A DNA stretch of 40,472 nt. Origin: a virus. Position numbers and translations under genes: made by a program. The notes beneath the pieces are model-generated. The model was not told the DNA's origin. It worked only from the letters and a program-made list of their open reading frames with translations, and searched no databases. Of the stretch, positions 9,186 to 25,092 are shown piece by piece (the first letter of the stretch is position 1; each line of letters opens with the position of its first letter). Location of the stretch: the IMG/VR virus record IMGVR_UViG_3300046616_000243, positions 1 through 40,472 of that record. One strand, given 5' to 3'.

Positions 9186-9207
9186 CGGCGCCCCCAATCG
9201 CCGGTCG

Positions 9208-9399
9208 TCATCTGACCATGGCCTTAGTTGGCGACGGCGACGATCCGGAATGAGCACCCTCATGGCCGCGTGGCCTGTCACATCGGCATACTGGTTGATG
9301 CTGGCCGGCCTCTGCACATCTGGTCACGGGTTCAAGGCAAGGGGCGGCTGGGGACGCGGCCCGTTCAGGTCGTCGCCCGGCCCAGCTCGGCCGCCTCAT
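9208..9399 (-). CDS. Small Cys/His protein, 63 residues
   Basis: It begins in an ATGA overlap with the membrane protein gene before it. The second half contains CRCDRPRGHEGAHSG, the Cys-x-Cys, proline, GHEG-x-H arrangement seen in many short actinophage and actinobacterial proteins and likely a metal site. The first half is basic and less convincing. Function unknown. Confidence 0.55.
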   Translation of the reverse strand: MRRPSWAGRRPERAASPAAPCLEPVTRCAEAGQHQPVCRCDRPRGHEGAHSGSSPSPTKAMVR

Positions 9400-9596
9400 C
9401 TTCTACTCCCAGGCGGTGGCCCTGACTCGAGAACGAAACCGCCGGCACCGGCCATCATGACCAGGAGGCCAGCCAGATAGGCGCCGTTGAGGTTGGGGCT
9501 CGTCATGAGGATCAGCGCTGCCCCGAGGACCACAAGGGGACCGTAAAGGTAAGCGCGGCGGCGATACCGGCCGACCCGCGCTGTCGGGCGCATCAC
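9396..9596 (-). CDS. Small two-helix membrane protein, 66 residues
   Basis: GTG at 9596 overlaps the previous stop (GTGA); an ATG at 9593 is equally possible. After a basic N-terminus, two hydrophobic segments follow: residues 16-32 (LYGPLVVLGAALILM) and 38-56 (AYLAGLLVMMAGAGGFVL), separated by a short SPNLNG turn. The positive-inside rule puts the N-terminus in the cytoplasm. It might act in superinfection exclusion or membrane-linked replication; nothing in the sequence decides it. Confidence 0.6.
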   Translation of the reverse strand: MMRPTARVGRYRRRAYLYGPLVVLGAALILMTSPNLNGAYLAGLLVMMAGAGGFVLESGPPPGSRR

Positions 9597-9862
9597 AGTT
9601 CCAACCCAAGCTGAATAGCTTTACGGGCCGACTCCCGGTGCTCGTGCTCGGAGAACTTGCCCCGATCAACGCCGTTCACAACGATCGTGTTGGTGGAAAG
9701 GTCGATCTCGATCGACTGGGGCAGCGGCCACTTGCGGCGGGCATAAGCGGTCATCTGGTGCTTGAACTCCGCAGTGCTGCGGTAGTGCAAGTCGCAGGTG
9801 TCCTGGAAAGGCCGATGTCCGATGGGATGGACCACCGCGAACGTCTTCTTCCTGGCCTTCAT
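9593..9862 (-). CDS. Hypothetical protein, 89 residues
   Basis: ATGA overlap with the gene before. It contains an alternating pattern (FAVVHPIGHRPFQD, IEIDLSTNTIVVNGVDRG) suggesting a small beta sheet with a helix (AEFKHQMTAYARRKW), somewhat like a small DNA-binding fold. Basic overall. No family recognised. Confidence 0.55.
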   Translation of the reverse strand: MKARKKTFAVVHPIGHRPFQDTCDLHYRSTAEFKHQMTAYARRKWPLPQSIEIDLSTNTIVVNGVDRGKFSEHEHRESARKAIQLGLEL

Positions 9863-10452
9863 CTTCTGCTACCCCGAAGTCGAGCTTCCCGGTCCAATTC
9901 GTGAAGCTGCGCAAGCGCAGATCGGTTCGGGTCGAACACCGTCACCGAAGCCAGATGCGGCCCCGGCTTCGGCAGAGACTCGTCCGACTTCTTGAAGCCG
10001 TCAAAAACGGGAGCGATCTCCACGTAGACGACATCAGGACTGGAGGCAGCTGCCGCCGGCACGTCGGGGGATTCGACGGCAGCTGCCGGATCAGAGGACT
10101 GCCCCCCGGCAGCCTCAGTGGAGGAAGTGGCAACGACGCTGCGATAGCGATCCGTTGACACCTCCACGTCAGAAACAAAGTTGTTGACCTTGGTCACCAC
10201 ATCGGCGAGCGCATCCGTGATCTGCGGGAGTGCGTGTTCGATGTTGCCTAGGCGGTCGAAGTGCTTTGCCGTTTTGAGAGCCCCGATAAGGTTCTCCGCA
10301 TCCTGAATAGCGAGGGTCAGCAGCTTGTGCCGACGGCCTTGCTCGGTAGGGATGATCTTGGACGGATAAGAGTCCGTTTCCATCTGCCGATCGACGGCGT
10401 GGAAGTAGGAGTTGCGGGGGAGCAGGTTCGTTGCTTCGTTGCTGGTGGTCAT
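9859..10452 (-). CDS. Hypothetical protein with Ala/Ser/Pro linker, 197 residues
   Basis: Residues 30-105 are helical (HKLLTLAIQDAENLIGALK, LPQITDALADVVTKVNNFV) and probably form a bundle. Residues 108-140 are a low-complexity Ala/Ser/Pro linker. The C-terminus has a short beta region (PDVVYVEIAPVFDGF) and a basic helical end. It shares bases with the neighbours at both ends (TGATG and ATGA). No known domain. Confidence 0.6.
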   Translation of the reverse strand: MTTSNEATNLLPRNSYFHAVDRQMETDSYPSKIIPTEQGRRHKLLTLAIQDAENLIGALKTAKHFDRLGNIEHALPQITDALADVVTKVNNFVSDVEVSTDRYRSVVATSSTEAAGGQSSDPAAAVESPDVPAAAASSPDVVYVEIAPVFDGFKKSDESLPKPGPHLASVTVFDPNRSALAQLHELDREARLRGSRR

Positions 10453-10685
10453 CAGGCCACCTCAGCCACAACGGGGGAGTGGCGAACTGACTGACCCATG
10501 AGGCGCGCTTCGGCCAGCTTCTCCAGCTGCTCCAGCGAGGGGCCTCCCGGCGTGTAGGCAGCTTCCGCGATCTCGCGGGGGCTCATGTTATTCATGCGGG
10601 CTGTCGCCTCGGCAAGAACACGGCCAGCGGCGGCGATGTGGGGACGGGCTTCCGGCGGTAGCTGCCGGAGTCTTCTGAGGACCAT
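10452..10685 (-). CDS. Hypothetical basic helical protein, 77 residues
   Basis: First gene after the hairpin-bearing gap 10686-10811. It has a basic N-terminus and three short helices (AAAGRVLAEATARM, SPREIAEAAY, LEQLEKLAEARLMG). An AGAAAAGAG purine stretch about 8 bases upstream may be the ribosome site. Fold and function unknown. Confidence 0.55.
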   Translation of the reverse strand: MVLRRLRQLPPEARPHIAAAGRVLAEATARMNNMSPREIAEAAYTPGGPSLEQLEKLAEARLMGQSVRHSPVVAEVA

Positions 10686-10708
10686 TTGTTAGACTCTTTT
10701 CTGATTCG

Positions 10709-10746
10709 AGAGCCAGGCTTCCCTTTTCAGATGAGGGCCTGGCTCT
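10709..10746 (-). terminator. 10 bp hairpin, possible attenuator
   Basis: Perfect arms AGAGCCAGGC (10709-10718) and GCCTGGCTCT (10737-10746) lie in the 126-base gap between the first two leftward early gene groups. There is no strong T run on the minus side, so it may be a weak terminator, an attenuator or an antitermination site rather than a full stop. Confidence 0.45.
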
Positions 10747-10758
10747 TGGGTTGTGACG

Positions 10759-10799
10759 AGCGGTCCAGTGAGTTCTTGGCGGAATAGCACTGGGCCGCT
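10759..10799. terminator. 12 bp hairpin beside the first
   Basis: Arms AGCGG-TC-CAGTG and CACTG-GG-CCGCT pair over 12 positions with one G-U. On the plus strand the stem is followed by TTTCTTTCT, a terminator-like tail, yet no plus gene ends here. It could block antisense transcription into the early genes or act in the early leader RNA. Confidence 0.4.
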
Positions 10800-10811
10800 T
10801 TCTTTCTGCCC

Positions 10812-11129
10812 TCAGCAGTTCTCCGCTGAGGAAGTGGGGACCGGCGCAACAGCAGCGGGGGAAGATGCTGCTGCGCCGGAGTCTGTGGGTTCAGCGGCGA
10901 GCGCCGCTTTCGTCTGTTGCAGGATCTCGATCAAGAGGTCCAGATCCGCTACCTCGAACTGAATGACGTCATGGTCATATCCGGACTGAATAGCAATGAG
11001 CGACGCTGGCTCTTCATTCCAAGCGATCACTTGCACTCGATGGCGCTGGGTGTAGCTGCCATGGCCCAGAAGATGGTCCGGCCGGGTGACGACCGCTTCC
11101 ACGGAGTGGGCTGTTCTGTAGCCGCTCAT
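10812..11129 (-). CDS. Early hypothetical protein, 105 residues
   Basis: It follows the Cro-like gene by an ATGA overlap, so it is the second gene of the early transcript. Residues 25-70 alternate hydrophobic residues and turns (HRVQVIAWNEEPASLIAIQ, HDVIQFEVADLDLLIEIL), suggesting a small alpha/beta domain; the last 30 residues are a disordered Ala/Pro/Ser tail ending in Cys. Genes in this place often control early expression or excision, but no helix-turn-helix is visible. Confidence 0.55.
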   Translation of the reverse strand: MSGYRTAHSVEAVVTRPDHLLGHGSYTQRHRVQVIAWNEEPASLIAIQSGYDHDVIQFEVADLDLLIEILQQTKAALAAEPTDSGAAASSPAAVAPVPTSSAENC

Positions 11130-11461
11130 GCGTGCATCCTCTTCTTCCGATCGGCAGAGATTGAATGTGTTGAATCTGTAACTGGAGGCAAAATATCATG
11201 CTCCTCAGCCTCGAAGAGCTCCTGCCAGGGGACTCCGAGCCATGCGGCAATGCCGATGGCGACCCCCTCTGTGCATGTCTTCATGCCTCCCGTTTCCAGC
11301 AAGTGGATCGTCTGCTGTGAGCGTCGAATGAGCGTTGCCAGTTGCTGCTGTGAGAAGCGCTGCTGCTTTCGCCACCGACGGAGCGCGGCCGGGTCTTTGA
11401 CCTTCATCCACGTATCCCTTCGATTGAGCGACGGACGCCGCCGAGTTGCTTGCATAGTCAT
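11126..11461 (-). CDS. Cro-like XRE helix-turn-helix regulator
   Basis: Protein of 111 residues with an HTH_3-type domain (PAALRRWRKQQRFSQQQLA, then LIRRSQQTIHLLETGG). The start at 11461 has a strong GGAGGT five bases upstream; an internal ATG at 11407 with AAGGGA upstream would give a shorter 93-residue form that starts right at the domain. It is the first gene of the leftward early operon and is read from the promoter at 11493-11521 that carries the operators, divergent from the repressor. This arrangement matches a Cro or early lytic regulator. Confidence 0.8.
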   Translation of the reverse strand: MTMQATRRRPSLNRRDTWMKVKDPAALRRWRKQQRFSQQQLATLIRRSQQTIHLLETGGMKTCTEGVAIGIAAWLGVPWQELFEAEEHDILPPVTDSTHSISADRKKRMHA

Positions 11462-11471
11462 TCTGACCTCC

Positions 11472-11490
11472 ACTTGTGAGTTTTACAAGT
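11472..11490. promoter_or_regulatory. Operator O-L: ACTTGT-N7-ACAAGT
   Basis: A perfect 6-7-6 inverted repeat of 19 bases. It covers the predicted transcription start of the leftward early promoter and lies just before the Cro-like ribosome site. The same arms recur 41 bases away at 11513-11531, about four helical turns, which fits cooperative dimer binding. Confidence 0.75.
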
Positions 11491-11492
11491 TC

Positions 11493-11521
11493 AATATGTC
11501 TAATCTTTGGCTACTTGTCAA
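11493..11521 (-). promoter_or_regulatory. Leftward early promoter
   Basis: On the minus strand a perfect TTGACA (11516-11521) is 17 bases from CATATT (11493-11498), a good sigma-70-like promoter. Transcription would begin near 11486. The -35 box lies inside the second operator, and the start inside the first, so repressor binding at either would shut it. Confidence 0.7.
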
Positions 11522-11531
11522 ACCCACAAGT
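11513..11531. promoter_or_regulatory. Operator O-R: ACTTGT-N7-ACAAGT
   Basis: Second exact copy of the 6-7-6 dyad arms with a different 7-base spacer. It overlaps the -35 box of the early promoter. A related half-site pair, GCAAGT-T-ACTTGT, lies at 11563-11575 nearer the repressor and may be a weak third site controlling the repressor itself. Confidence 0.75.
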
Positions 11532-11633
11532 GAGACAGCCCTTCTAAACTCTGCAAAGATGAGCAAGTTACTTGTATTCAGATTGCAGCTCGCCCCTTAC
11601 TAAACGGCGACACCATCAGGAAGAGTCATCGGT

Positions 11634-12215
11634 GTGAACCAACCTCAGAGCCTCAGTGAGCTAGTCGAGCTTGCGGCCCAGTATCGCGACGCATCAGGCC
11701 TCGGCCTGTCGCAGCTGGCAGCTAAGAATGGCTACCAATTGACGGCTACGACGATCAACCAGATCCGTCAGGGTCTGTACAAGTCGAAGCCACGCGAAGG
11801 CACCCTGCGTGCTCTGGCTTGGCTAGCCGGCGTGTCAGATGAGGTTGCGTTCACGGCTGCGGGGCAAACCGTCCCCGGCCCACCGTTTGCCGAGGAACTC
11901 CCACCCGGTGTCGACAACCTCTCGCCTAAGGCTCGGAAGGTAGTGCTCGACATGGTGAGGGTCCTTGTGGACTTGGAAAAGAGCGCAAATGCGAGTAACA
12001 CCGATGCAGAGGAACAGCCAACCGACATCCGGGATGCCCGCGAGCGCCGTAACACTCGCGCTGGACAGAAGACCTCCCCGGGCAGTGAATCAGAAACTGT
12101 CGTGCCCCTAAGCGATGATGCGATAGACCGTCTGCACAAAGAGCAGTGGGAATCGTTGGCGGCCAAGAAAGCACCAGGGGGCATTACACATGATCAGAAT
12201 CCCGAGGACACCTGA
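11634..12215 (+). CDS. Immunity repressor (helix-turn-helix)
   Basis: Protein of 193 residues with a GTG start; AGGAAGAG lies 8 bases upstream. The N-terminal domain (residues 8-75) has a helix-turn-helix around LSQLAAKNGYQLTATTINQI followed by LRALAWLAGVSDEVAF, the layout of actinophage immunity repressors. A helical middle (KARKVVLDMVRVLVDLEK) could be a dimer segment. There is no LexA/CI-type self-cleavage domain. Instead the next gene, overlapping by 26 bases, is a metallopeptidase, so inactivation is probably by that partner. Placed divergent from the Cro-like gene with shared operators. Confidence 0.8.
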   Translation: MNQPQSLSELVELAAQYRDASGLGLSQLAAKNGYQLTATTINQIRQGLYKSKPREGTLRALAWLAGVSDEVAFTAAGQTVPGPPFAEELPPGVDNLSPKARKVVLDMVRVLVDLEKSANASNTDAEEQPTDIRDARERRNTRAGQKTSPGSESETVVPLSDDAIDRLHKEQWESLAAKKAPGGITHDQNPEDT

Positions 12216-12609
12216 CTCGTACGCGAGAGAGCTGGGCGTCCGGATCCGCTTCGGTTGGGTACCGGATGGAGCGTGGGGGAGCTACGACGCGGACCTCCAC
12301 CTGATCACCCTTCGCGTAGGACTTGGCCCGTTGCAGCTACTGTGCACTTTGATGCACGAGCTGGGGCACGCAGCACACCGCCACCGGGGCCGTGGGCGCC
12401 GGCAAGAGCGTGAAGCCGACACTTGGGCAGCCGTGAGGCTTATCTCGAAGACAGACTTCGTCGACGCCTACCTGGAGCGCCAAGACGCTGTCGGTATCGC
12501 CCACCGGCTTGGAGTCCTGCCTGACGTCGTGGAGCACTACATCGCCGCACTGACCAAAGCCGAGCGTGACTCCTTAGCGGAGCTCCTCCGCGCACGCCTC
12601 GCCGCGTAA
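12190..12609 (+). CDS. ImmA/IrrE-family metallopeptidase
   Basis: Protein of 139 residues with a zinc-protease motif HELGH (His56, Glu57, His60) and a downstream EREADTWA that supplies the third ligand (Glu75), the pattern of the ImmA/IrrE family. In ICEBs1 the homologue ImmA cleaves the repressor ImmR, and in Deinococcus IrrE cleaves DdrO. Here the gene overlaps the 3-prime end of the repressor, so cutting of that repressor upon DNA damage or infection is the likely role. Length is normal for a single-domain member. Confidence 0.85.
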   Translation: MIRIPRTPDSYARELGVRIRFGWVPDGAWGSYDADLHLITLRVGLGPLQLLCTLMHELGHAAHRHRGRGRRQEREADTWAAVRLISKTDFVDAYLERQDAVGIAHRLGVLPDVVEHYIAALTKAERDSLAELLRARLAA

Positions 12610-12637
12610 GCCCTTCCTCTTAGAGAGCCTTCCAAAC

Positions 12638-14080
12638 GTGAATACACAAAGGGCCCACCTCAGGGCTGTCCAGAACGCGCCTAAAAGGGCGGTCGCCTAT
12701 ATCCGCGTCTCCAAAGAACGCGACGGAATGATCAGTCCCGAACTGCAGCTGGCATCCATCGAACAACACTGCGAGCGCAGCGGATACGAGATCGTTGAGA
12801 CGCTCACTGACTTGGACATGACCGGACGCTTTTGGAAGCGCCGGCAAGTTGAGCGTGCCATTGGCATGATCGAGGCCGGTACTGCTGATGTTCTCGTTGT
12901 CTGGAAGATCAGCCGCGTATCGAGGAACCGCAAAGACTGGGCGATCGCCGTTGACCGAGTCGAAGGCATCGGCGGCCGCATGGAGTCCGCAACGGAACCG
13001 ATGGACACCACCACTTCATCGGGCAGGTTTGCCCGGGGAATGCTCGCGGAACTGGCTGCTTTCGAATCCGAGAGGATGGGGGAGCAGTGGAAGGAGTCCC
13101 ACGCCCGCCGGATAAGGGCTGGTATCCCTGCCAACGGGAAGCCGCGCTTTGGCTACCAGTACTCGAAAGAGGAGGGCTTCAGTCCAGATCCTGTCACTGG
13201 GCCAGTCCTGGCGGACCTGTACCGCCGGTATTTGTCCGGCCAGTCTTTCTACTCCCTGGTGAAGTGGCTAAATGACGGACCAACCCGACCCGTCATCGGC
13301 TACGGAGTGTCCTCGGACGGCATGTGGTCCGATCGAACCGTGCGCCGGATCTTGGACCAAGGCTTTGGCGCCGGCTACATCACCGCCCACGGGGAACGGG
13401 TGCCAGGAGTCCATGAACCGGTAATCACCCCCGAGGAGTGGAATGAATACCTCTCCCGACGCGAAACCCGACGGGTGTACCGGCGTAGCGAGCGATCCAA
13501 CTACCTCTTCTCAGGAATGATCCGCTGCGCCTGCGGAGGGGCCATGCACGCGGGACTCTACGGCGCTGGCAAGTCGCCCAAGTACAAATGCGCCGATGTG
13601 GCGAGCAAGCGGAAGCACACTGGCGGGTACGTCATGACCTCCACCGTCGAGATCGAGTTTGTGAAGTGGCTGGAAAGCATCGCCGCAAACATCGACGCGG
13701 AAGCCGACCTTGCCGCCAAAGCGGAACAGCAGGCAGCGAGCGCGGCTGACACGGCCGCCCACCTCAAGAAGCAACTGGCCAAACTGGGCACGCGCATGGA
13801 CCAACTCACCAACAAGATGCTCGACGGCACCGTCCCCGATGACACCTACCGCCGGCTGCGGGACGAGTTGGAGGCCCAAGGCAGCGCGTTGGAGATCGCC
13901 ATCAGAGATGCGCAGGTGGTCGCATCACGGCCGCCCGCCTCGCTTATCCCTGACCTCCTGGCAAACTGGGCTATCCTCCCCATCGACGCTAAACGCGATC
14001 TCCTGTCGAGGCTCATTCATCACGTGGAGGTTCTACCAGGGCGTCCGCGAGCGCAAGTAAAGGTTCATCCTCGCTGGTGA
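12638..14080 (+). CDS. int: Large serine integrase
   Basis: Protein of 480 residues, GTG start. The resolvase domain has the catalytic Ser25 in YIRVSKERDG and the usual Arg-rich region (WKISRVSRNRKDW). The recombinase domain follows (GFGAGYITAHGERVPG), then a zinc ribbon with CACGGAMHAG (about 297-299) and YKCAD (near 318), and a coiled coil (AAHLKKQLAKLGTRMDQL). This is the standard order for phage large serine integrases, which join attP and attB without host factors and need a separate directionality factor for excision. It is transcribed in line with the repressor and protease, so integration is tied to the lysogenic programme. Confidence 0.9.
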   Translation: MNTQRAHLRAVQNAPKRAVAYIRVSKERDGMISPELQLASIEQHCERSGYEIVETLTDLDMTGRFWKRRQVERAIGMIEAGTADVLVVWKISRVSRNRKDWAIAVDRVEGIGGRMESATEPMDTTTSSGRFARGMLAELAAFESERMGEQWKESHARRIRAGIPANGKPRFGYQYSKEEGFSPDPVTGPVLADLYRRYLSGQSFYSLVKWLNDGPTRPVIGYGVSSDGMWSDRTVRRILDQGFGAGYITAHGERVPGVHEPVITPEEWNEYLSRRETRRVYRRSERSNYLFSGMIRCACGGAMHAGLYGAGKSPKYKCADVASKRKHTGGYVMTSTVEIEFVKWLESIAANIDAEADLAAKAEQQAASAADTAAHLKKQLAKLGTRMDQLTNKMLDGTVPDDTYRRLRDELEAQGSALEIAIRDAQVVASRPPASLIPDLLANWAILPIDAKRDLLSRLIHHVEVLPGRPRAQVKVHPRW

Positions 14081-14099
14081 GAATCTGAGGCCGCGCTTG

Positions 14100-14411
14100 C
14101 TACCGCTTCGTTTCTGCGGACCTAGGTTGTTCGGGCTCTGTGAAAACGATGCCGGTACCGGTGTCTGGGATCTTCTTGAATGATCCGAGATGGGCGTCCT
14201 TGAGTACATGACCGATCCATCCTTCACGCAGATGGACTTTGCCGGCGGGCGTGGTCGTCGGCGCTGGGATCGGTTCTTGCGCTGACGGGAACTTGGTCAA
14301 GTCCAGCCCCGCGAGCTTCACGATCTTCGTGGGAACAGGCTTATTCTGGCCTTCCAGAATCCGCTTGCGACCCCTCGCTGCGATGATGTGTGCCCTAGTT
14401 ATCTTGCTCAT
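14100..14411 (-). CDS. Hypothetical basic protein, 103 residues
   Basis: It starts within the end of the upstream membrane protein gene (17-base overlap) and is convergent with the integrase. Residues 1-35 are basic (RAHIIAARGRKRILEGQNK) and the rest is Pro/Thr-rich with LREGWIGHVLKDAHLG. No domain known. The tight overlap suggests a two-gene unit with the membrane protein, perhaps lysogenic cargo. Confidence 0.5.
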   Translation of the reverse strand: MSKITRAHIIAARGRKRILEGQNKPVPTKIVKLAGLDLTKFPSAQEPIPAPTTTPAGKVHLREGWIGHVLKDAHLGSFKKIPDTGTGIVFTEPEQPRSAETKR

Positions 14412-14772
14412 CAGCTGCCCTCTCGACGTCCTCTTCGCTGACCTCGTCAGTGATGTCTTCCAAGATCGAGTCGATCATGTCTTTGTCGACGGTTTCAATC
14501 CAGTCTACGAGTGCAAGGGCTCCCAGCACAGTGGCCCCCAGCTCTCGGTAGTCCTCTTCCGGACCTTCCACCCGCTCGGCCGCCCAGACGAATCGATCCC
14601 ACCACTGTTCCCTGTTCTCCCGGTTGGCAGTCCCCAGTCGGGTCAGATGCCCTTGCCTAATCGTCACAATGACGTTGATAACGCCAACGACGATTGCCGC
14701 TGCGGCAACGCAAATAGCTGCGACGACTTGGGGCGAGTTTGCTACGTCCGTCACTACTTCTGTCGAGATCAC
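14395..14772 (-). CDS. Membrane-anchored protein with acidic tail, 125 residues
   Basis: GTG start. A single clear membrane segment lies at residues 16-37 (VVAAICVAAAAIVVGVINVIV), preceded by a short outside part. After it comes a soluble helical part with RENREQWWDRFVWAAERVE, a Trp-rich motif seen in other actinobacterial membrane-linked hypotheticals, and a strongly acidic end. Small single-span proteins next to integrases are frequent superinfection exclusion or abortive infection factors; here that is only inferred from position and build. Confidence 0.55.
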   Translation of the reverse strand: MISTEVVTDVANSPQVVAAICVAAAAIVVGVINVIVTIRQGHLTRLGTANRENREQWWDRFVWAAERVEGPEEDYRELGATVLGALALVDWIETVDKDMIDSILEDITDEVSEEDVERAADEQDN

Positions 14773-14982
14773 CGCTTCATCGTAAACGGTGATCTTCCGT
14801 AGCTCCGCTCCTTGAGGGGTGAGAACACGCCTTAGTCACACTAGTGACTGCGGTCTAATCTCACCTTTGCCCGGCAGGGGTCCGGACCCGCGCCTGAGAT
14901 CCCGTCGTCAAGCACCCATCAAGTACTCATCAAGGAAAGCCTCTAGTGGCAAACCGTCGGTGCTTCCACATAGGCTTCCGGA
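14773..14982. other. Noncoding 210-base region with dyads; attP or regulatory candidate
   Basis: No gene is visible. It holds a 16-base dyad AGTCAC-ACTA-GTGACT (14834-14849), a perfect 12-base palindrome GGGTCCGGACCC (14878-14889) and a direct repeat CATCAAG-TACT-CATCAAG (14917-14934). The attachment site of the serine integrase was not found elsewhere, so this is one place to look, and it must also hold promoters for the genes on both sides. Confidence 0.35.
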
Positions 14983-15219
14983 ATGCTCACCGACCAACAG
15001 AAGGCCATGCTCGACCTTGCCAGCGAGAAGTTCAAGTACGCTGGCTCCCTGGACTCGGCTGCCATGGAACGTTTCGGCATGACTCCGACCAGATACTGGC
15101 AAGAGGTCAACCGACTCATCCAGACAGAAGCCGCCGTGGCATACCGCCCGGCAACGGTGGCCCAGCTCAAGACCAGGCACCGAGCCATGGTGCGGACTGC
15201 CAGCAGGCTAATCCGGTAA
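14983..15219 (+). CDS. DUF3263 family protein
   Basis: Protein of 78 residues matching the DUF3263 pattern well: LTDQQKAMLDLASEKFKYAG, then FGMTPTRYWQEVNRLI and a basic end with RHRAMVRTASRLIR. DUF3263 proteins are small helical, helix-turn-helix-like proteins of actinobacteria and their phages, thought to be DNA-binding. It overlaps the end of the next minus-strand gene by 12 bases. As it is read rightward beside the integrase region, a role as regulator or excision factor is possible. Confidence 0.8.
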   Translation: MLTDQQKAMLDLASEKFKYAGSLDSAAMERFGMTPTRYWQEVNRLIQTEAAVAYRPATVAQLKTRHRAMVRTASRLIR

Positions 15220-15579
15220 GAAACCCGGGAACCTCTTCCCCCACTGAACCATGCGAAGCCACTCAGGGCAGCGGTTGTACTCATCGATGTCCCACTCCGA
15301 GTCCGTAACGGGCCTGACTGATTCCTTGGGCAACCACGCTGCCAGACTCACTTTGTCATCGTCGTACCATTGCACGCTGATTTGGGTTTTGTTCCAGTGC
15401 GTGGCCTCGGCGTAGACGGCGACTGTTCCGCCAGCCTTTAGCGAGACTTGTGCGTGGACCTTTGGGTAGCTGCCCCACTCCCATGAACGAATGTCCTCGT
15501 GCGGCCCCACGCGCTCTGAATGGACGTACTCGTACGTGACGCCCCCAAGCAGGAAGGACGTCGGCGGATAGATCGGCAT
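15208..15579 (-). CDS. Hypothetical protein, 123 residues
   Basis: The protein alternates strands and aromatic turns (GGVTYEYVHSERVG, HAQVSLKAGGTVAVYAEAT, TQISVQWYDDD) and is probably a small beta-rich domain with an acidic C-terminal half ending in PEWLRMVQWGKRFPGF. No family recognised. It is divergent from the 15605 gene, with only 25 bases between the starts, and convergent with the DUF3263 gene. Likely lysogenic cargo. Confidence 0.5.
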   Translation of the reverse strand: MPIYPPTSFLLGGVTYEYVHSERVGPHEDIRSWEWGSYPKVHAQVSLKAGGTVAVYAEATHWNKTQISVQWYDDDKVSLAAWLPKESVRPVTDSEWDIDEYNRCPEWLRMVQWGKRFPGFLPD

Positions 15580-15582
15580 CCC

Positions 15583-15601
15583 ACCATCATGCCAAGATGG
15601 T
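15583..15601. promoter_or_regulatory. Dyad ACCATC-N7-GATGGT between divergent genes
   Basis: A 6-7-6 inverted repeat fills the short gap between the divergent starts at 15579 and 15605. The geometry equals that of the immunity operators (6-N7-6), but the arm bases differ. It may be an operator for a local regulator; it could also be chance given its length. Confidence 0.3.
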
Positions 15602-15604
15602 CAG

Positions 15605-15751
15605 GTGGAAGTTACCTTGACCATTGAGAACGCCGCCGGAGAGCGGGGCACTGTGCAGGCGTTAGGGGGCGATTACGAGACAGCCTATACAGCAGCACGT
15701 GAGCTAATCCCCGAAGACTGTAAAGCCATCGTCATCCGCACATCAGAATGA
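15605..15751 (+). CDS. Small protein, 48 residues
   Basis: Open frame from GTG at 15605 to the stop at 15749-15751. It has a strand-rich start (VEVTLTIENAAGERG), a helix (YETAYTAARELIPED) and a final strand (CKAIVIRTSE), the profile of a compact beta-alpha-beta domain. It precedes the next small gene by 14 bases. The start codon is weakly supported. Confidence 0.45.
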   Translation: MEVTLTIENAAGERGTVQALGGDYETAYTAARELIPEDCKAIVIRTSE

Positions 15752-15765
15752 AGAGAGAAGAAACC

Positions 15766-15936
15766 ATGACAGCTCCTCAAGAAGTACGTGCAGCAGAGAA
15801 GGCAACACGCATCGCACTGCTGGAAGCAATATCGGCACAGACCCCTGACGCATCAGCGGCAGACATGGTGAAACTCGCGGAGGCCTACAAGCTTGTCGTT
15901 TCATCGTCTAGTATTTCGACTACCGACCAAAACTAG
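15766..15936 (+). CDS. Small helical protein, 56 residues
   Basis: The ATG at 15766 is preceded by AGAGAGAAG with good spacing; an ATG at 15748 is less likely. Two helices are visible (EVRAAEKATRIALLEAISAQ and AADMVKLAEAYKLVV), and the end is a short Ser-rich tail. Similar two-helix peptides occur in many actinophages, function unknown. Confidence 0.5.
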   Translation: MTAPQEVRAAEKATRIALLEAISAQTPDASAADMVKLAEAYKLVVSSSSISTTDQN

Positions 15937-15951
15937 GCAGAGGACCCACCC

Positions 15952-16149
15952 ATGAGCAGCTACTCTGGCAGCACCAAGGCAACCGAGACTCCACAGCGCT
16001 CGGTGACGGTCTTCGCAACGTTAGCCACGCTTGCCTTCTTCGGCGCTGTCATGGCTTTCTACATGGAGAACGTTCTCTTCGCCGGCGGCTTGCTGCTGCT
16101 GACGCTCGGACTAGGCCTTGGGGCCAAGTCAGCCAATCGCAGGCAATAG
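15952..16149 (+). CDS. Small two-span membrane protein, 65 residues
   Basis: AGAGGACC lies before the ATG. Two hydrophobic spans are clear: residues 19-38 (TVFATLATLAFFGAVMAFYM) and 41-57 (VLFAGGLLLLTLGLGLG), with a short basic end. It is the last gene before a bidirectional terminator. It is probably expressed in the lysogen and may be a superinfection exclusion factor, by position only. Confidence 0.55.
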   Translation: MSSYSGSTKATETPQRSVTVFATLATLAFFGAVMAFYMENVLFAGGLLLLTLGLGLGAKSANRRQ

Positions 16150-16162
16150 GCAGCAACGCAAA

Positions 16163-16196
16163 AAAGCCCCCGTACTCCGAAGAGTGCGGGGGCTTT
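16163..16196. terminator. Bidirectional terminator with UUCG loop
   Basis: Perfect 10 bp arms AAAGCCCCCG and CGGGGGCTTT, extended by ACTC/GAGT around a four-base loop. On the minus strand the inner stem is CTC-TTCG-GAG, the extra-stable UUCG tetraloop, and it is followed by TTTTTT. It would end the polymerase-like gene from the right and the small membrane protein gene from the left. Confidence 0.85.
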
Positions 16197-16255
16197 GCAG
16201 CGCTCAGGGGGTTGAGCAAATGCTGCGGTTCAATCCTACTGTTTATGATTGGGGC

Positions 16256-16489
16256 ATGACTATGGATGCTGCCCTCAAAGAGCTCGCCGCCGCCCTGGCC
16301 GAAGATCCGGCGCTATCGCCGCGGACTCGGACAGCTGCGCAGGAAGTCCTGCAAGCCGCGCAAGCTCGGCTTGATGACGCTGAACGGGTGGCCGTGTTCT
16401 ATGCCGAAGACCACGCCGCAATGCTCGCAGAGGACGAGGCGTTTCGTCGGCGGAAACCGTTCCTAAGTAAGCTATTGCGAACCAAATAG
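16256..16489 (+). CDS. Helical protein, 77 residues, possibly leaderless
   Basis: The peptide is a long amphipathic helical run (LKELAAALAEDPALS, AAQEVLQAAQARLDDAERV) with a basic end RRRKPFLSKLLRTK. The ATG at 16256 has no ribosome site but lies 6 bases after TATGAT (16244-16249), as in leaderless actinobacterial transcripts. It overlaps the 3-prime end of the minus-strand polymerase-like gene by 215 bases, so one of the two ends may be misread. Composition argues that it is real. Confidence 0.5.
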   Translation: MTMDAALKELAAALAEDPALSPRTRTAAQEVLQAAQARLDDAERVAVFYAEDHAAMLAEDEAFRRRKPFLSKLLRTK

Positions 16490-17708
16490 GCAGCACCGTC
16501 CACGCTGGAGTTGCGTTCAACCCCACCACCAAAAACACGACCAGAGCCAAGTCGCTCCGCTGCGATCCCCGGAGCCTCCACAGTAAGCCGGTCAGGAGCA
16601 AGACGAACGCGACGCCGGCGATAGCTCCCAGCTCAGCGAAGATCTGCACATAACTGTTGTTTGCAATCGCACGTTCGATTCCCGCATTAAAGTTTCGGGG
16701 AAGCTCGCTATAGTCCGTATAAGTTTCGTACCAGGCCCCGTACCGACCGGGACCGACGCCGAGGAACGGATTATCAAGCATCATCGCGAACCCTGTGTCC
16801 GTGTTGACGGTTCGCGAGCGCATCGAGTAGCCGATGTTCCGGCTTAGGCCGTCAGCATCTACCAGACCGAGCTTGCCAAGCTGCTGGGACACATAAGCAT
16901 TGGCCGCTGGAATGAAAGTAGTGGCCGCAGCGCCTACCAGTCCGAGGAACGCCAGGACTGATACGACCTTACCGGTCGGGCGCAGGAACACAATCAACAT
17001 CAGACCTGCCAGCACGCCGAGCACGCCAGTGGTCGACTGCGAGTACAACAGGCAGGCCAACGCTAGTCCGGTACCAAGTTTGTCGCCACGTCGCAGGACG
17101 ACAAAGAATGCAATGCCTGCGAAGAACCCAAGGTAATTACCTTCAAGGAACGGGCCATTTCGTGGGAGCCTCAAGCCGTAAGCACTCCCTGACTGCGTGC
17201 GGCCATTAACGGCGGCAAGCAAGGACGCTGCTCCACCTAGGAACAGCACCACCTGCACGCCGCAATAGATCGCTGCAAGCCTGACTGCTTTAGAAAAGCC
17301 TTCAGCAATCCGCTCAGGGCCGAGTCGAGTAGCCGCAAACCAGCAGACCACAATGACTATCCCGCCGTAGGCCATGTACTGGATGATGTCCGCCGTGAGC
17401 CCGCGGCTGTAACCTTGCGGATTGTTCAAGGGCAGCTCGCGCGTCATGTTGACGGCCGTGGACAGCGCCAGAACGACAGACATCACCAGCAGCTTTCCGC
17501 CGCCGTGGAAACTAAACGCCGGCTTGCGTCCCTCAAGCATGAAAAGAGCCACCGCCAACAGCCCGGCGACTTCACTAATCTTCAGCGGGAACCCAACCTG
17601 CACCGTGAAGGCCTGCTGGAACGGCACGAAGACCACAGCCCAGAACATCAGCCCTTCAGCGAACGGTGTTCGTGACTTAGCAGATCGCGGTAATTCTTTG
17701 ACAAGCAT
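16275..17708 (-). CDS. Wzy/O-antigen-ligase-like membrane protein
   Basis: Protein of 477 residues with about ten membrane spans and one large loop, the build of the O-antigen ligase / Wzy polymerase superfamily. Spans begin near residues 22, 45, 70, 102, 136 and continue to about 415. The loop at about 280-350 carries GLSRNIGYSMRSRTV and MMLDNPFLGVGPGRYG, the R-x-x-x-W-like and NP-x-x-GVG-type segment common in WaaL/Wzy proteins. Such proteins polymerise or transfer surface polysaccharide units. It has its own candidate promoter and terminators and follows the tail spike, so it looks like a moron. From about residue 422 the sequence turns Arg/Ala-rich and overlaps a plus-strand gene, so the true end or a truncation is in question. 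Confidence 0.75.
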   Translation of the reverse strand: MLVKELPRSAKSRTPFAEGLMFWAVVFVPFQQAFTVQVGFPLKISEVAGLLAVALFMLEGRKPAFSFHGGGKLLVMSVVLALSTAVNMTRELPLNNPQGYSRGLTADIIQYMAYGGIVIVVCWFAATRLGPERIAEGFSKAVRLAAIYCGVQVVLFLGGAASLLAAVNGRTQSGSAYGLRLPRNGPFLEGNYLGFFAGIAFFVVLRRGDKLGTGLALACLLYSQSTTGVLGVLAGLMLIVFLRPTGKVVSVLAFLGLVGAAATTFIPAANAYVSQQLGKLGLVDADGLSRNIGYSMRSRTVNTDTGFAMMLDNPFLGVGPGRYGAWYETYTDYSELPRNFNAGIERAIANNSYVQIFAELGAIAGVAFVLLLTGLLWRLRGSQRSDLALVVFLVVGLNATPAWTVLPIWFAIAYLGTVSADETPRPLRALRRGLRHRTRPPVQRHQAELARLAGLPAQLSESAAIAPDLRPGRRRAL

Positions 17709-17737
17709 GCATCATCCCTGCTCGAACCAAGTGGGAC

Positions 17738-17770
17738 GGTCCCCCCGCGCAATATTAGCCGCGGGGGACC
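17738..17770. terminator. GC-rich hairpin after the tail spike gene
   Basis: Arms GGTCCCC-C-CGCG and CGCGGGGGACC form an 11 bp stem with one bulged base, between the spike stop and the polymerase-like start. There is no long T run. It may end most late transcription, leaving the moron to its own promoter. Confidence 0.5.
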
Positions 17771-17781
17771 ATGGCTCCCAA
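17752..17781 (-). promoter_or_regulatory. Candidate moron promoter
   Basis: On the minus strand TTGGGA (17776-17781) is followed after 18 bases by TAATAT (17752-17757), each 4 of 6 to consensus. It lies in the short gap upstream of the polymerase-like gene and partly within the hairpin at 17738-17770. Confidence 0.4.
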
Positions 17782-17791
17782 CATTTGGTCG

Positions 17792-20419
17792 TCAGAGAAG
17801 GCGGGTCAGCTTCAAATACGACCCTGCGAACACCGTGGCATCTGACGCCTCGGCAACGAGCTGTGCAAACGTCAATTGCAGCACCCCTGCCGTTGCGCCA
17901 GTGACCAGCAGGCCTTTGGGGTAAGCGAAGATCTTAGAGGCCACGCCTGCCCCACCAATCGGGCTTGTCTCGCTGATACCCTTCGGCTGTCTAGCAACAG
18001 AGCTGGTCGGAGACGTCGTACCTGTCGAGAGCCCGTTGGCTGACCAGTCCATCGCTGCGGAAGCCGGGTATGTCCAACCGAATGTGATATCCGCCGCCGT
18101 CGATGCAGCGTAGATAATGGCTCCCTCAACCTCGTAAACGGCATTGGCGGCCACGTTGAAAACAAGCCCAGTCGCCGCCACCAGCGACCCAGAGTTATTC
18201 ACCACCACGTCGGCCGTGGACTTTGCCAGCCTGGGGATATCCAAATCCGTCAAGACCTTGCGAGACCCAACCGAAAAACTGCCGTCTGCCGCAACGACAA
18301 CCTGGTCAAATGCCTCTCGCCAGGCACCACTGGACCAGACCAAGTGCACAGCCTGGTTGCCGACTGACAGAGTACGGTTCACGCTTCCCGCCAGCCTCGT
18401 GTTGAAGCTTGCCCCATGCTGAACCGTCAGTGCCGCAGTTGCCGTCCCCATGACTATGCTGAGTCGTTGCCCGTCAAACTGCCCGACAGGAACGGACCCC
18501 ATAGTTCGGGGCGTTGAATCGGTGATGTTTGCCGTCAACACCAGCTGGGCGTCTGTGGCCATGAATAGCTGCGTCAAGGAGCCAGCGAGCGCTGCGTTGT
18601 TGAACCCCACGCCACCTGAGGTGCGACGGGATAGCGAGTCTGTTGGGTTGTAGAGGCACCGCCATTTCACTGAGGAGATGACGGCGTCCGGTATTGGGAA
18701 TGGAGCCGACGTCGCCCAGGGCGTTTCGAAAACGAAGTCCTCAATGAGGACGCGTTCTGTCTCAGAAGAGAATGCTGTCGGCGTGGCAGTCGCTGCTTGG
18801 TAAGCGGCGCTGGCCTTTACTTTGAGTTTGCCAATGCGGAAGTCCGACTTTTCGCCTGCCACGGGGTCAACGCTGAACAGACGCTGCGTGCCGGTACCCA
18901 CTGTTGCCACTGCGGAAAGGTCAAGAGAGCCGCTGAACTCTAGGGCAGAGTTTTCGCACTGGATAATCGACCCGTCGGCTTTGGAGCCTAGGGTGATGTC
19001 CGCGTCTGTGATCTTTGCGTTTCCGTTGAGGAGAACCCCGAACCTTTCAACGCCTCGGGCGTTCACGCCGGTCATGGTCACACTAGGAGTTGTGGGCCGA
19101 ACGTTGTAGTTAGGGTGGGTCGCTGCTCCGCGGACGGCCACGGTCAGAACTCGACGGGACCCTACAACTTTGAAGTTGTCCACCGTGTGCAGTTCCGACT
19201 CTCCTTGACTCCAAGCCCCCGTGACTTGTGTTGTCACCATGAGGGCCGCGAGTCCACCGTAGACGGTGCAGTCGATGATGCTGTGACTGGTTCCGCGCAG
19301 CAGGAAGCCGTTGACTTCCGGGGAGACGTACGCGGTGCAGCCGATGAACTGGATGCCGCGTGACATGTGGTGGGTGTCGAACCCGGCTGCGGTGCAGTCG
19401 TGGCTTGTGATGTTGACCAACTTCGTATTGAAGGTCCGCCCGAACGATGACGCATCAGTCGAGCCTGCGGCCACGTCGCCTGTGCCACAGGTGAACGGGT
19501 GGCGCAGGGATCGCTGGCTACCGCCCTCAATGACACCATTCGTGCACGACGAATCGTGAACGCCGTAGCTGAACACCCCGTTGGTGGGATCGTTCATGCC
19601 CCAACGAACGTTGAAGTTGGAAACGCGGTACGCGTAGCAGGACTTGAAAGACAGGCCCATTCCTACGAGCCGCTTTGCGACGCTATTCTCCACGACCGCG
19701 TTCGTGAGGTTCTGGAAGCGGAACATCGAACCCTCGGTCTTGCCCGACACCACCGCATCAGTGACGTCGAACATGGCGCCGGTCAAGGTCACGCCACCGT
19801 AGGGAAGACGGCTGGCCCGGGGGGCTGTCGTGTAGGACTCCGCCAGAAGGTTGGAGCGGACCCCGTCTGTGAGGCCACGCAAGTACACAGTCGTGCCTGA
19901 AACTGACAGGACCTCGGCAAACTCACCCCGCCGCGGCTTCACCGTATCGGAAGTGACGTGCGCGCCGCTGATGACGTCATCTGAATAGATTTTGATCAGG
20001 TCGTTGGGGAACCACGACGGGGTAGTGGCCATGGTCAGCTTCGTAACCGTGGCTGGCTGGCCGTCAATCGTGATTGACTCAGTGGCAAAGGCGGTGATGC
20101 CGTACTCAGTATCAAAGACACTTTCACACCGGAAGACCATGGCTGAGCCAGCCCGGATGAACGTTGCCGCCTGGCCATCAATCTTCAAGAACTTCTCAGG
20201 GGGGACAACGGATACTGCGCTGGTAAGGTACTGACCCATAAACTTGACGGTCGCCCCATAAGGGGCTGCATTCAGCACCTCTTGGATCCCAGTGTGGGTC
20301 AAGGTGGCGCCCGTGTTGTCGATCGCCGGAAACTGATCCGGTGTGGCGAGAATGGCGATTTCACCGAACGCCGAATACATCTCATTGCGTGTGATGCCGG
20401 GGACGTCCAAGATTCCCAT
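17792..20419 (-). CDS. Beta-helical tail spike / receptor-binding protein
   Basis: Protein of 875 residues. The start at 20419 (MGILDVPG) has AAGGAGAA upstream; the longer frame is low-quality. After a short N-terminal part, residues 60-450 show the pectate-lyase-like right-handed beta-helix pattern: short strands, Asn and Gly ladders (VSNFNVRWGMNDPTN, NGVIEGGSQRSLRHP, FIGCTAYVSPEVNG, SIIDCTVYGG). A later part (about 620-870) is beta-rich and probably trimeric. Spikes of this fold bind or degrade host surface polysaccharide. It is the last gene of the structural operon, directly before the polymerase-like gene. Catalytic residues cannot be assigned from sequence alone. Confidence 0.75.
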   Translation of the reverse strand: MGILDVPGITRNEMYSAFGEIAILATPDQFPAIDNTGATLTHTGIQEVLNAAPYGATVKFMGQYLTSAVSVVPPEKFLKIDGQAATFIRAGSAMVFRCESVFDTEYGITAFATESITIDGQPATVTKLTMATTPSWFPNDLIKIYSDDVISGAHVTSDTVKPRRGEFAEVLSVSGTTVYLRGLTDGVRSNLLAESYTTAPRASRLPYGGVTLTGAMFDVTDAVVSGKTEGSMFRFQNLTNAVVENSVAKRLVGMGLSFKSCYAYRVSNFNVRWGMNDPTNGVFSYGVHDSSCTNGVIEGGSQRSLRHPFTCGTGDVAAGSTDASSFGRTFNTKLVNITSHDCTAAGFDTHHMSRGIQFIGCTAYVSPEVNGFLLRGTSHSIIDCTVYGGLAALMVTTQVTGAWSQGESELHTVDNFKVVGSRRVLTVAVRGAATHPNYNVRPTTPSVTMTGVNARGVERFGVLLNGNAKITDADITLGSKADGSIIQCENSALEFSGSLDLSAVATVGTGTQRLFSVDPVAGEKSDFRIGKLKVKASAAYQAATATPTAFSSETERVLIEDFVFETPWATSAPFPIPDAVISSVKWRCLYNPTDSLSRRTSGGVGFNNAALAGSLTQLFMATDAQLVLTANITDSTPRTMGSVPVGQFDGQRLSIVMGTATAALTVQHGASFNTRLAGSVNRTLSVGNQAVHLVWSSGAWREAFDQVVVAADGSFSVGSRKVLTDLDIPRLAKSTADVVVNNSGSLVAATGLVFNVAANAVYEVEGAIIYAASTAADITFGWTYPASAAMDWSANGLSTGTTSPTSSVARQPKGISETSPIGGAGVASKIFAYPKGLLVTGATAGVLQLTFAQLVAEASDATVFAGSYLKLTRLL

Positions 20420-20427
20420 GGTTCTCC

Positions 20428-20787
20428 TTAGCTGACCGCGATTGGCGGCCTGTTCGTTACGGCCCCGCTGCTGTTGCGGGTGACCATGGGCTGCGTGAAA
20501 GTCAAGGTTGTTGTTCCCACACGAGTCAACGTGTATGAATCGGTTGCGCCTGGCCATTCGGCAGAGGCTGTACCGGAGTAGACTCCGGCGACTCCGTCTG
20601 GCCATTCGACCTGCGCAGACGTCGCCACTTTGTTCGAATCTCGCACTATTGCTCCCGAGAAAAGTGCGTCCGGCTCCTTAGCGAGTTGGACCAGCGCAGC
20701 CTCCAGGTCGTCTTCGAGGTCGTTCAAGCGGGCCGCTGTCAGTGGCGTATTGCCGATTGGGCCATCTGCCCAATTTCTCCTCGACAT
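20428..20787 (-). CDS. Minor tail protein, spike-associated, 119 residues
   Basis: The ATG at 20787 shares bases with the previous stop (TGATG). The N-terminus NWADGPIGNTPLTAARLN followed by LEDDLEAALVQL is the common opening of actinophage tail fibre and spike proteins. The rest is beta-rich with VEWPDGVAGVYSG and ending in NRPPIAVS. It lies 8 bases before the spike and may be a spike adaptor or small fibre. Confidence 0.65.
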   Translation of the reverse strand: MSRRNWADGPIGNTPLTAARLNDLEDDLEAALVQLAKEPDALFSGAIVRDSNKVATSAQVEWPDGVAGVYSGTASAEWPGATDSYTLTRVGTTTLTFTQPMVTRNSSGAVTNRPPIAVS

Positions 20788-21731
20788 CAAACATCCCCTC
20801 CAAGTGCGCGGACAGCCGCGGTGAGCTTTTCGATCTGTTCTTGCTGTGACTGGACGACAGGTAGAAGTGCCACACCCAGCAGGTCGTAACGGACACCGTC
20901 AATCTCGCCGTCGTAGTAGGTGACGATTTCGGGTACGTGCTTCTCGACTTCTTGAGCGATGAGACCGTATTGGTTCTTTGCGCCGGGGAATTTCTGTTCT
21001 GGCCCGATGAGGCGGTGACCGTTCGCGTCTTGGGGGTAGCGGTAGGTCGGTTTGCGGTCGTACCTGACTTGGCGGAGCTGGAGGACGTTGACAGGGTCTA
21101 CTTCCGCGTCCGTGACGTTTTCCTTGTACTTGATGGAGGACACGTTCCGGCCGAAGTGGAACCCGCCGTCATTGCCAACCCAGAGCGCGTAGAAGCTGGA
21201 CCCGGCGACGTTGTTCGTCCACCCTGACTCAGAACCGTCCGCTTGGGCGGCGTGGGTTGCCTCCACCGCGTTGGTGGCGTTTGTGGCGTTCGCAACAACG
21301 GAAGTGATCTCGCCGCCGCTATGTGTGTGTGCTGACGGCGCGAACGTTGCCGGTTTGCCGGATACGCCATCCCATGTGGTTACTTGATTGCCGAGGCGCA
21401 CCCAGGTGGAACCAACCAGGACTTCCACGCCGTACTCACCTGGTGCCGTCTCTAGGAGCTCACCGAAGCGGGTGACAGGTGCGGCGCCGGCGTCGTCGAA
21501 CACCGTGAACGTGCCTGTTTCCGGATCAACCTGCACCCCGGTGGTGCCGTCGGTCCGACGGAACTGCATGAAGCCGTTTACTAGTACGCCACCAGCTGCT
21601 GCGTTGATGCCGGCTGTTGCGAGGATGTTCGCGGCGCTGAATTGTTGGACGCGCTGCTCCAGCTCGCGGAGTCGGCGGTTGATCGCGTCCTCGCCCGGGA
21701 ATTGTGATCCCGGTAGTCCTGGCTGGGCCAT
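20787..21731 (-). CDS. Minor tail protein with S74 intramolecular chaperone
   Basis: Protein of 314 residues. Residues 20-35 form a short coiled coil; the middle (50-190) is beta-rich with HTHSGGEI, typical of tail tips. The C-terminal domain from residue 198 is a peptidase S74 chaperone: Ser198 and Lys203 in SSIKYKENV form the S-to-K dyad at +5 as in endosialidase chaperones, followed by YGLIAQEVEKHVPEIV and a final coiled coil (VVQSQQEQIEKL). In this family the chaperone folds the trimer and then cuts itself off just before the Ser. So the mature protein is likely about 197 residues and trimeric. Confidence 0.85.
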   Translation of the reverse strand: MAQPGLPGSQFPGEDAINRRLRELEQRVQQFSAANILATAGINAAAGGVLVNGFMQFRRTDGTTGVQVDPETGTFTVFDDAGAAPVTRFGELLETAPGEYGVEVLVGSTWVRLGNQVTTWDGVSGKPATFAPSAHTHSGGEITSVVANATNATNAVEATHAAQADGSESGWTNNVAGSSFYALWVGNDGGFHFGRNVSSIKYKENVTDAEVDPVNVLQLRQVRYDRKPTYRYPQDANGHRLIGPEQKFPGAKNQYGLIAQEVEKHVPEIVTYYDGEIDGVRYDLLGVALLPVVQSQQEQIEKLTAAVRALGGDV

Positions 21732-24021: not shown

Positions 24022-24785
24022 GGCGCTCCTCCTGCGGGTGTGGGTTGCGCTGCTGCGCACGTGTAGGTGCTGGAGCCGGGCGGGTTTGGCATGCACGTGT
24101 ACGTGGTGCCGAGAGTGTCCGTGAAAGTGAACGAGGTGGGCGAAGTGCCGTCTTTGCCGTCCACGCCATTGGTGCCGTTTGTGCCATTCGCCCCTGCCGG
24201 GCCAGCCGGACCTATTGGACCAACCGGACCCGTCGGACCAGGCTCGCCTTGGGGCCCGGGCGGCCCGGGCACTGTCGAATCAGCGCCGTCCGTGCCTGTG
24301 TTCCCGCTTGCTCCGGAAACCCCCGCGGCGCCAGTATCACCCTTTGGGCCAGTGGCCCCCTGGATGCCCTGGACCCCTTGCTGGCCAATCGGGCCGGGAG
24401 AACCATCAATACCGCGGGGCCCAGGCGAACCCTGAGGGCCTTGCAAACCTTGAACGCCCTGCGGTCCTTGACTCGGTTCAGTAGCTGCCTTCTCCAGATT
24501 CCGGCACGTTTCCGACGCGGCCGCCGACTGATCAGCAGACTGGCACAGGGTGTCCGTGGCAGCCTGTGCCAAGCTCTTCTTCTCTTTCTCCTGTCCCGCC
24601 CCATACTGCGCATTCACCACAGCCAGCCGGTGATTATCTGAAGCCAACCAGGCCGCGTAAGCGCCCACCCCCAAGAGCACCAGCGAGAGGGCGGCAAGGA
24701 TGAGCATTGTTCGTTTGGCGGCACGCCTCGACTTCGCGACTTCCGCCTGAGCTGCTTCGAGCTCCGGATCACTCGGTGTCGTCAT
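24018..24785 (-). CDS. Membrane-anchored collagen-like protein
   Basis: Protein of 255 residues, start at 24785 with GGAGGA upstream. A membrane span lies at about 27-46 (MLILAALSLVLLGVGAYAAW), followed by a polar helix with two Cys. Then come 34 Gly-X-Y triplets in two blocks (about 107-169 and 174-212), split by STVP, with many GPQ, GPP and GKD units. A Cys-containing beta end (DTLGTTYTCMPNPPGSS, TYTCAAAQ) finishes it. Collagen repeats are known in phage tail fibres; here the anchor and the place between two lysis-type genes point to an envelope role instead, perhaps a trimeric spanin-like or wall-linking rod. This is inference. Confidence 0.8.
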   Translation of the reverse strand: MTTPSDPELEAAQAEVAKSRRAAKRTMLILAALSLVLLGVGAYAAWLASDNHRLAVVNAQYGAGQEKEKKSLAQAATDTLCQSADQSAAASETCRNLEKAATEPSQGPQGVQGLQGPQGSPGPRGIDGSPGPIGQQGVQGIQGATGPKGDTGAAGVSGASGNTGTDGADSTVPGPPGPQGEPGPTGPVGPIGPAGPAGANGTNGTNGVDGKDGTSPTSFTFTDTLGTTYTCMPNPPGSSTYTCAAAQPTPAGGAP

Positions 24786-25056: not shown

Positions 25057-25092
25057 ACGTCTGCCCCTCCTATCCGTTCATCTTCAGATGGC

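Follow-up and report, generated by a model that had tools for sequence, protein, structure and literature searches.

By its gene content, a temperate, cluster-FF-like phage of Arthrobacter type carries, immediately behind its tail spike gene, a gene (wzy) whose product is a member of the Wzy_C/O-antigen-ligase superfamily and is most likely a captured exopolysaccharide polymerase. We regard it as probable that wzy is a lysogenic-conversion gene altering the polysaccharide that is read by the neighbouring spike. The window, i.e., the whole stretch of DNA that was analysed, is a virus contig of 40472 bases. The coordinates of the features discussed are collected in Table 1.

Table 1. Features of the window, with strand and basis of the assignment.
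Feature	Position	Strand	Basis
HTH-like protein, immunity-type gene	11634-12215	+	HTH from inspecting the translation
IrrE/ImmA-like peptidase, immunity-type gene	12190-12609	+	PF06114
Large serine recombinase (integrase)	12638..14080	+	PF00239, PF07508
65-aa protein, two predicted transmembrane segments, convergent with wzy	15952..16149	+	no family match
Intrinsic terminator behind wzy, UUCG loop	16163..16196	-	folding
Coding-like 77-aa ORF on the strand opposite the wzy 3' end	16256..16489	+	codon score
Non-conserved end of the wzy ORF (residues 426-477), probably read-through	16275..16433	-	codon score, alignment
wzy-like gene, Wzy_C/O-antigen-ligase superfamily, probable polymerase	16275..17708	-	PF04932, fold, orthologs
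Spike-wzy gap, 83 bases, GC hairpin and weak promoter-like site	17709..17791	-	folding, shuffles
Tail spike, 875 aa, depolymerase-type, upstream neighbour of wzy, co-directional	17792..20419	-	phrog_27786, PF25692

The wzy-like protein and its bacterial relatives

The 477-codon open reading frame encodes a polytopic protein with a large loop, as the earlier note had read it from the sequence; the loop is extracytoplasmic, comprises about residues 267-353 and contains DNPFLGVGPGRYG. The conserved part of the protein corresponds to residues about 15-425 (16434-17666). In a profile search the protein matched PF04932 (Wzy_C) with an E-value of 8.6e-15 and 55.3 bits at a curated cut-off of 31.7, the match spanning residues 214-369 including the extracytoplasmic loop with NPFLGVGPGRYG. 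Conserved arginines and the GxGxG-type motif are kept as R183, R299, R322, R346 and GVGPGRYG, the four arginines being among the positions at which the four closest bacterial homologs do not vary. No family was found in NCBIfam or PHROGs, a scan for defence systems returned no match for the protein, and the Wzy alignment, run as a sequence profile against the PDB, gave no matches. An AlphaFold2 model calculated from a five-sequence alignment, which is of modest confidence (mean pLDDT 63), had the O-antigen ligase WaaL as best PDB match (7tpg, E 5e-6, probability 1.00), followed by FtsW (8p1u, E 0.026), and transporters scored far lower, with TM-scores near 0.1. The predicted fold is accordingly of the WaaL/SEDS type. 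The assignment to the surface-polysaccharide polymerases or ligases, proposed before any database search, is therefore borne out by the Pfam score above cut-off and by WaaL as top fold match, and on the same two results an unrelated transporter family is rejected. The homolog in Geobacillus virus E2 weakly resembles the model of the 'bicarbonate transporter' IctB (44.6 bits against a cut-off of 366), which is taken to reflect membership of the same superfamily.

One scan of bacterial genomes yielded four close homologs in Microbacteriaceae (38-55% identical), and further homologs at 29-38% identity were present in about 1-2% of the sampled Micrococcales genomes. Orthologs were counted in 4/300, 5/396 and 6/245 genomes of family- and order-level samples that overlap, and the five hits among 396 genomes include one short weak match and one interrupted gene. 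This rarity fits a serotype-specific Wzy, as expected. The nearest relatives (29-55% identical) mostly reside in Wzx/Wzy exopolysaccharide loci of Micrococcales, where genes for glycosyltransferases, an initiating sugar transferase and a flippase are found nearby. Around the Galbitalea gene, Pfam identified a Wzx flippase (PF13440), a GT2 glycosyltransferase, a bacterial sugar transferase and a pyruvyl-transferase-like protein; most other ortholog loci, compared to the Galbitalea locus by BLAST, contain relatives of some of these genes, and the full set does not occur in every locus. In the phylogenetic tree the phage protein is nested within the bacterial group beside the Galbitalea protein (support 96/95). 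As the relatives sit in exopolysaccharide loci and the phage protein is nested in the bacterial group of the tree, we conclude that wzy is most likely an exopolysaccharide polymerase gene captured from bacteria.

The 3' end of the wzy frame apparently extends into a neighbouring gene. The last 52 codons (residues 426-477) are absent from the homologs in the alignment and have a non-coding-like codon score of -0.43 bits per codon, compared to +0.12 for the remainder of the ORF, and the opposite-strand ORF (16256-16489) scores +0.27, i.e., coding-like, in the stretch overlapping wzy. This read-through could be a scar of the capture.

The phage, its tail spike and the flanking signals

The terminase, portal and capsid proteins of the window share 67-83% identity with their counterparts in Arthrobacter phage Cole. 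Its tail module is mosaic and includes RootBeer-like parts. Cole and Elesar are members of the actinobacteriophage cluster FF (PMC13097055). The host is taken to be Arthrobacter-type from the phage backbone, the contig itself giving no direct assignment. A temperate lifestyle is indicated by the presence of the large serine recombinase together with the ImmA-like peptidase. As in Cole, the phage encodes a DnaN-like sliding clamp and a ParB-like protein, at 5537-6802 and 7477-8880 (both on the minus strand). Between integrase and wzy lies a gene (14395-14772, minus strand) for a 125-aa protein with hydrophobic N-terminal segment and acidic tail, possibly another moron, which shows no convincing family match.

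Two families are matched by the spike: phrog_27786, a tail spike family (E 1e-55), and Phage_depo_C, the C-terminal domain of phage depolymerases (PF25692, 49 bits). The spike shares 39% identity with the Rhodococcus phage ReqiPoco6 tail spike. Its true start is most likely at 20419, where AAGGAG precedes the ATG, rather than at 20605; the first 62 codons of the longer ORF overlap the preceding gene. The pectate-lyase-like helix suggested in the earlier note is supported indirectly, by family and relatives rather than by a model of the spike: no Pfam beta-helix match was obtained, and phmmer gave weak matches in the PDB to K1 lyase and to another phage or particle-associated lyase. Relatives of the spike were not detected among 396 genomes of the order, and beta-helix proteins near bacterial wzy loci, considered as a source of the spike, show no similarity to it.

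With only the short gap between them, wzy does follow the spike gene directly, as had been stated. The signals that were supposed to make it an independent unit turned out to be of unequal quality. The UUCG-loop terminator is well supported, with six consecutive T on the minus strand, a folding energy of -31.4 kcal/mol and a z-score of -5.3, none of 200 shuffles being as stable (0/200); small plus-strand genes end at 16149, just before it, and on their strand the T tract is weak. The GC hairpin in the gap (inverted-repeat core 17743-17766) is stable as well (z -2.9, 3/200 shuffles). It is not a canonical intrinsic terminator, however, because the T tract is absent. At 17752-17781, where a promoter had been proposed, a site TTGGGA-18-TAATAT does exist, but it is weak: it has 8/12 matches, it is not listed by the standard 9/12 promoter scan, and an equally good site occurred in 48/1000 shuffles of the gap. 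Over 9000-21000 promoter-like sites are not in excess, 2 being found and 3.0 expected by chance.

An inhibitor gene of the iap type was not recognisable by sequence in the window. The 65-aa protein convergent with wzy is reminiscent in size and topology of the alpha-polymerase inhibitor of epsilon15 and could be an Iap-like polymerase inhibitor. Its sequence does not resemble iap of epsilon15 or D3, and Cole has a 66-aa membrane protein at the equivalent place without wzy.

The slot beside the last tail gene in other phages

Four further Wzys were found in phages of Gram-positive bacteria, namely in E2, in the Arthrobacter phages Elesar (gp31) and Maja (gp27) and in a prophage of the bacterial genome G614, and all of them adjoin the last tail gene. 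E2 was retrieved by a search with the window Wzy sequence, Elesar was noticed by its position, and Maja and the G614 prophage were retrieved with the Elesar Wzy sequence; leaving aside Elesar as a positional find, and epsilon15 and D3 as chosen because they were known, 3/3 of the sequence-found Wzys adjoin the last tail gene. E2 resembles the window in having a PF04932 protein (ORF19, 'putative O-antigen polymerase', 67 bits) beside the spike of a Gram-positive phage, with 25% identity to the window Wzy over 280 aa. It differs in its opposed orientation, a 41-base gap separating wzy from the convergent gene of a pectin-lyase-like spike, in its Firmicutes host and in its distant lineage. Elesar (MK392368), the cluster FF relative, encodes in the equivalent slot a 504-aa 'membrane protein' (locus L031, 7954-9468, minus strand; PF04932 at 40 bits), whose gene overlaps the 3' end of a beta-helix and SGNH tail gene by 141 bases. 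In Maja (MK279899) the gene, also for a 'membrane protein' (locus L037, 9203-10645, minus strand; PF04932 at 43 bits), meets an SGNH tail esterase. Unlike the window gene, both are opposed to the late genes, and they represent another Wzy lineage, for which BLAST found no significant similarity to the window Wzy. The prophage in G614 (locus L046, G614:C1:3568700-3588600) combines a beta-helix/SGNH tail protein (5454-8321, plus strand) with a convergent Wzy (8181-9731, minus strand), 77% and 60% identical, respectively, to their Elesar counterparts. G614 has two PF04932 matches in its genome and its own resident Wzx-, Wzz- and Wzy-like locus (L052; neighbours by inspection), so that both polymerases can meet in one lysogen. 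Separate Wzy lineages occupy the slot, at least two in Arthrobacter phages and a third in Geobacillus.

Scans of IMG/VR with the window Wzy, a five-sequence Wzy alignment, the spike, the E2 Wzy and the Elesar Wzy found no Wzy-bearing relatives beyond E2, and a scan with the minor tail protein found one distant contig. A second Wzy of the window type was not present in the phage or IMG/VR collections, the distant E2 aside.

In about 23 other Arthrobacter phages (23 distinct phages from 35 records with 99-100% identical protein, RefSeq duplicates merged) the slot holds an anchored SGNH esterase instead of wzy. In these phages the tail esterase is followed by a small membrane protein and then by an SGNH hydrolase with N-terminal hydrophobic anchor. 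Anchored SGNH hydrolases in the slot of related Arthrobacter phages lie at 24618-25385 in locus L007 and at 20645-21517 in locus L008 (both minus strand). Elesar and Maja are without the Cole-type SGNH gene. The SGNH-like hydrolase in the slot of RootBeer and this phage's own tail protein share phrog_15641 at 25% identity. SGNH domains of tail proteins were reported to be active esterases in Klebsiella prophages (PMC13123978). Judged from its contents, the slot seems to be a place for genes whose products edit surface glycans.

The earlier note had gone further and postulated a matched pair of spike and polymerase. What stands is the adjacency, which recurs in unrelated phages, and the joint presence of an Elesar-type tail and Wzy in a resident prophage. 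A strict match is not supported, because Elesar and Maja have polymerases that are 80% identical but unrelated tail proteins, and Maja thereby breaks a strict co-variation of beta-helix tail and Wzy. Conversely, the tail SGNH domain is common to Elesar and Cole at 81%, yet their slots carry different cargo. From both comparisons, the type of cargo is not strictly tied to the type of tail. The description of wzy as a moron holds nonetheless, given a temperate phage, a gene nested among bacterial exopolysaccharide Wzys and a slot that varies between related phages.

In Gram-negative bacteria the arrangement is known. Salmonella phage epsilon15 (tail spike gp20, wzy-beta, iap) is likewise temperate, has a PF04932 polymerase (40 bits) directly after the tail spike and wzy near the integrase, with a terminator between spike and wzy-beta. 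Its target, however, is the Gram-negative O antigen on LPS, its wzy is opposed to the late genes and it has a co-directional iap inhibitor gene, whereas the window wzy is co-directional with the spike and no iap was recognised. Pseudomonas phage D3 also encodes a surface-polymer polymerase between the tail gene and the endolysin and integrase genes, but as part of a three-gene module acting on LPS, with iap and an O-acetylase between tail gene and wzy-beta. The epsilon15 and D3 proteins are known polymerases and are annotated as such in the records. The prophage Wzys of A. baumannii (WzyPh1/Wzy1Ph and Wzy2Ph) share with the window that a Wzy and a tailspike depolymerase are found in one prophage, the Wzy using capsule units that the host produces; they concern a Gram-negative capsule, and the function that was shown there is only inferred for the window. 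Comparison of isolates with and without prophage showed that the prophage Wzy alters the linkage of the capsule units, the resident Wzy seems to be suppressed, and the authors speculated that the change gives protection from phages with a depolymerase that acts on the former linkage (PMC9241936, PMC13228068).

Proposed role, rival readings and implications

By analogy, the A. baumannii logic would fit the window phage. A Wzx/Wzy-type exopolysaccharide polymerase would have been captured from a micrococcal chromosome into a variable slot after the receptor-binding tail gene. Expressed in the lysogen, the Wzy in the cytoplasmic membrane would take undecaprenyl-linked repeat units supplied by the host flippase, override the resident polymerase and join the units by a linkage, or to a length, unlike that made by the host polymerase. 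The depolymerase-type spike would read or cut the normal polymer, and the changed polymer would no longer serve as receptor for the phage and its kin, by which superinfection would be blocked. Extending this to Gram-positive temperate phages in general is more tentative, and we hold it with somewhat less than even confidence: such phages would keep a coat-editing slot by the receptor-binding gene, filled by a captured Wzy or an anchored SGNH esterase, with which the lysogen erases or rebuilds the glycan that is read by the tail, a form of seroconversion without LPS.

The main oddity of the window gene is its co-directional layout. Since wzy and the late genes are oriented alike and its sole promoter candidate is weak, its transcription might be confined to the late phase and start at the structural-gene promoter. 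The gene would then be a passenger or act around lysis, for example by altering the surface such that new virions are kept off debris, instead of serving lysogenic conversion. For this speak the co-directional position 83 bases after the spike, the lack of a canonical terminator in between and a promoter not above chance in the standard scan. In E2, Elesar, Maja, the G614 prophage, epsilon15 and D3, however, wzy is opposed to the late genes and therefore needs its own promoter there, and a polymerase made minutes before lysis would presumably alter little of the coat; we consider late-only expression unlikely. Slightly less likely still is that the protein acts as ligase, moving a finished glycan from the lipid carrier to a protein or wall acceptor like PglL, TfpO or WaaL; the lysogen would then acquire new glycosylation, and adsorption would be affected in a similar way. 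Ligases and polymerases do both fall under PF04932 and the WaaL fold, and bacterial genomes with an ortholog have one to six PF04932 matches, which suggests several jobs for the family. The orthologs nevertheless sit with Wzx, an initiating transferase and glycosyltransferases, as a Wzy would, the epsilon15 and D3 proteins of the slot are known polymerases, and lipid A, the acceptor of WaaL, is not known from actinobacteria.

We regard it as very improbable that wzy came from a host chromosome by chance and is carried along as a neutral or decaying passenger. Its rarity, with no second Wzy of its type in the collections except the distant E2, and the apparent read-through at the 3' end would agree with such a fate; against it, the protein retains the residues that do not vary among its four closest bacterial homologs, the four arginines among them, the core is open and coding-like, and separate Wzy lineages are found in the same slot elsewhere. 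Lysogenic conversion by a captured polymerase is the reading we prefer.

A phage Wzy behind the tail spike is already known from viruses of Gram-negative bacteria. New are the member in an actinobacterial phage, two unannotated Wzys of Arthrobacter phages, one prophage Wzy and a slot that is shared with anchored esterases. A search of the open-access literature, of which coverage is incomplete, found no paper dealing with Wzy-type proteins from phages of Arthrobacter or Geobacillus, and within the literature covered the remark that such systems are less explored in actinobacteria was right. The classic layout of serotype conversion is thereby extended to actinobacterial phages and seen in a Firmicutes phage, i.e., to groups in which the receptors are poorly known. 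A function is suggested for two genes now named only 'membrane protein', Elesar gp31 and Maja gp27, and as these phages infect the laboratory strain Arthrobacter globiformis B-2979, the idea is directly testable. The findings further suggest as a rule that a receptor-editing gene should be sought directly beside the last tail gene.
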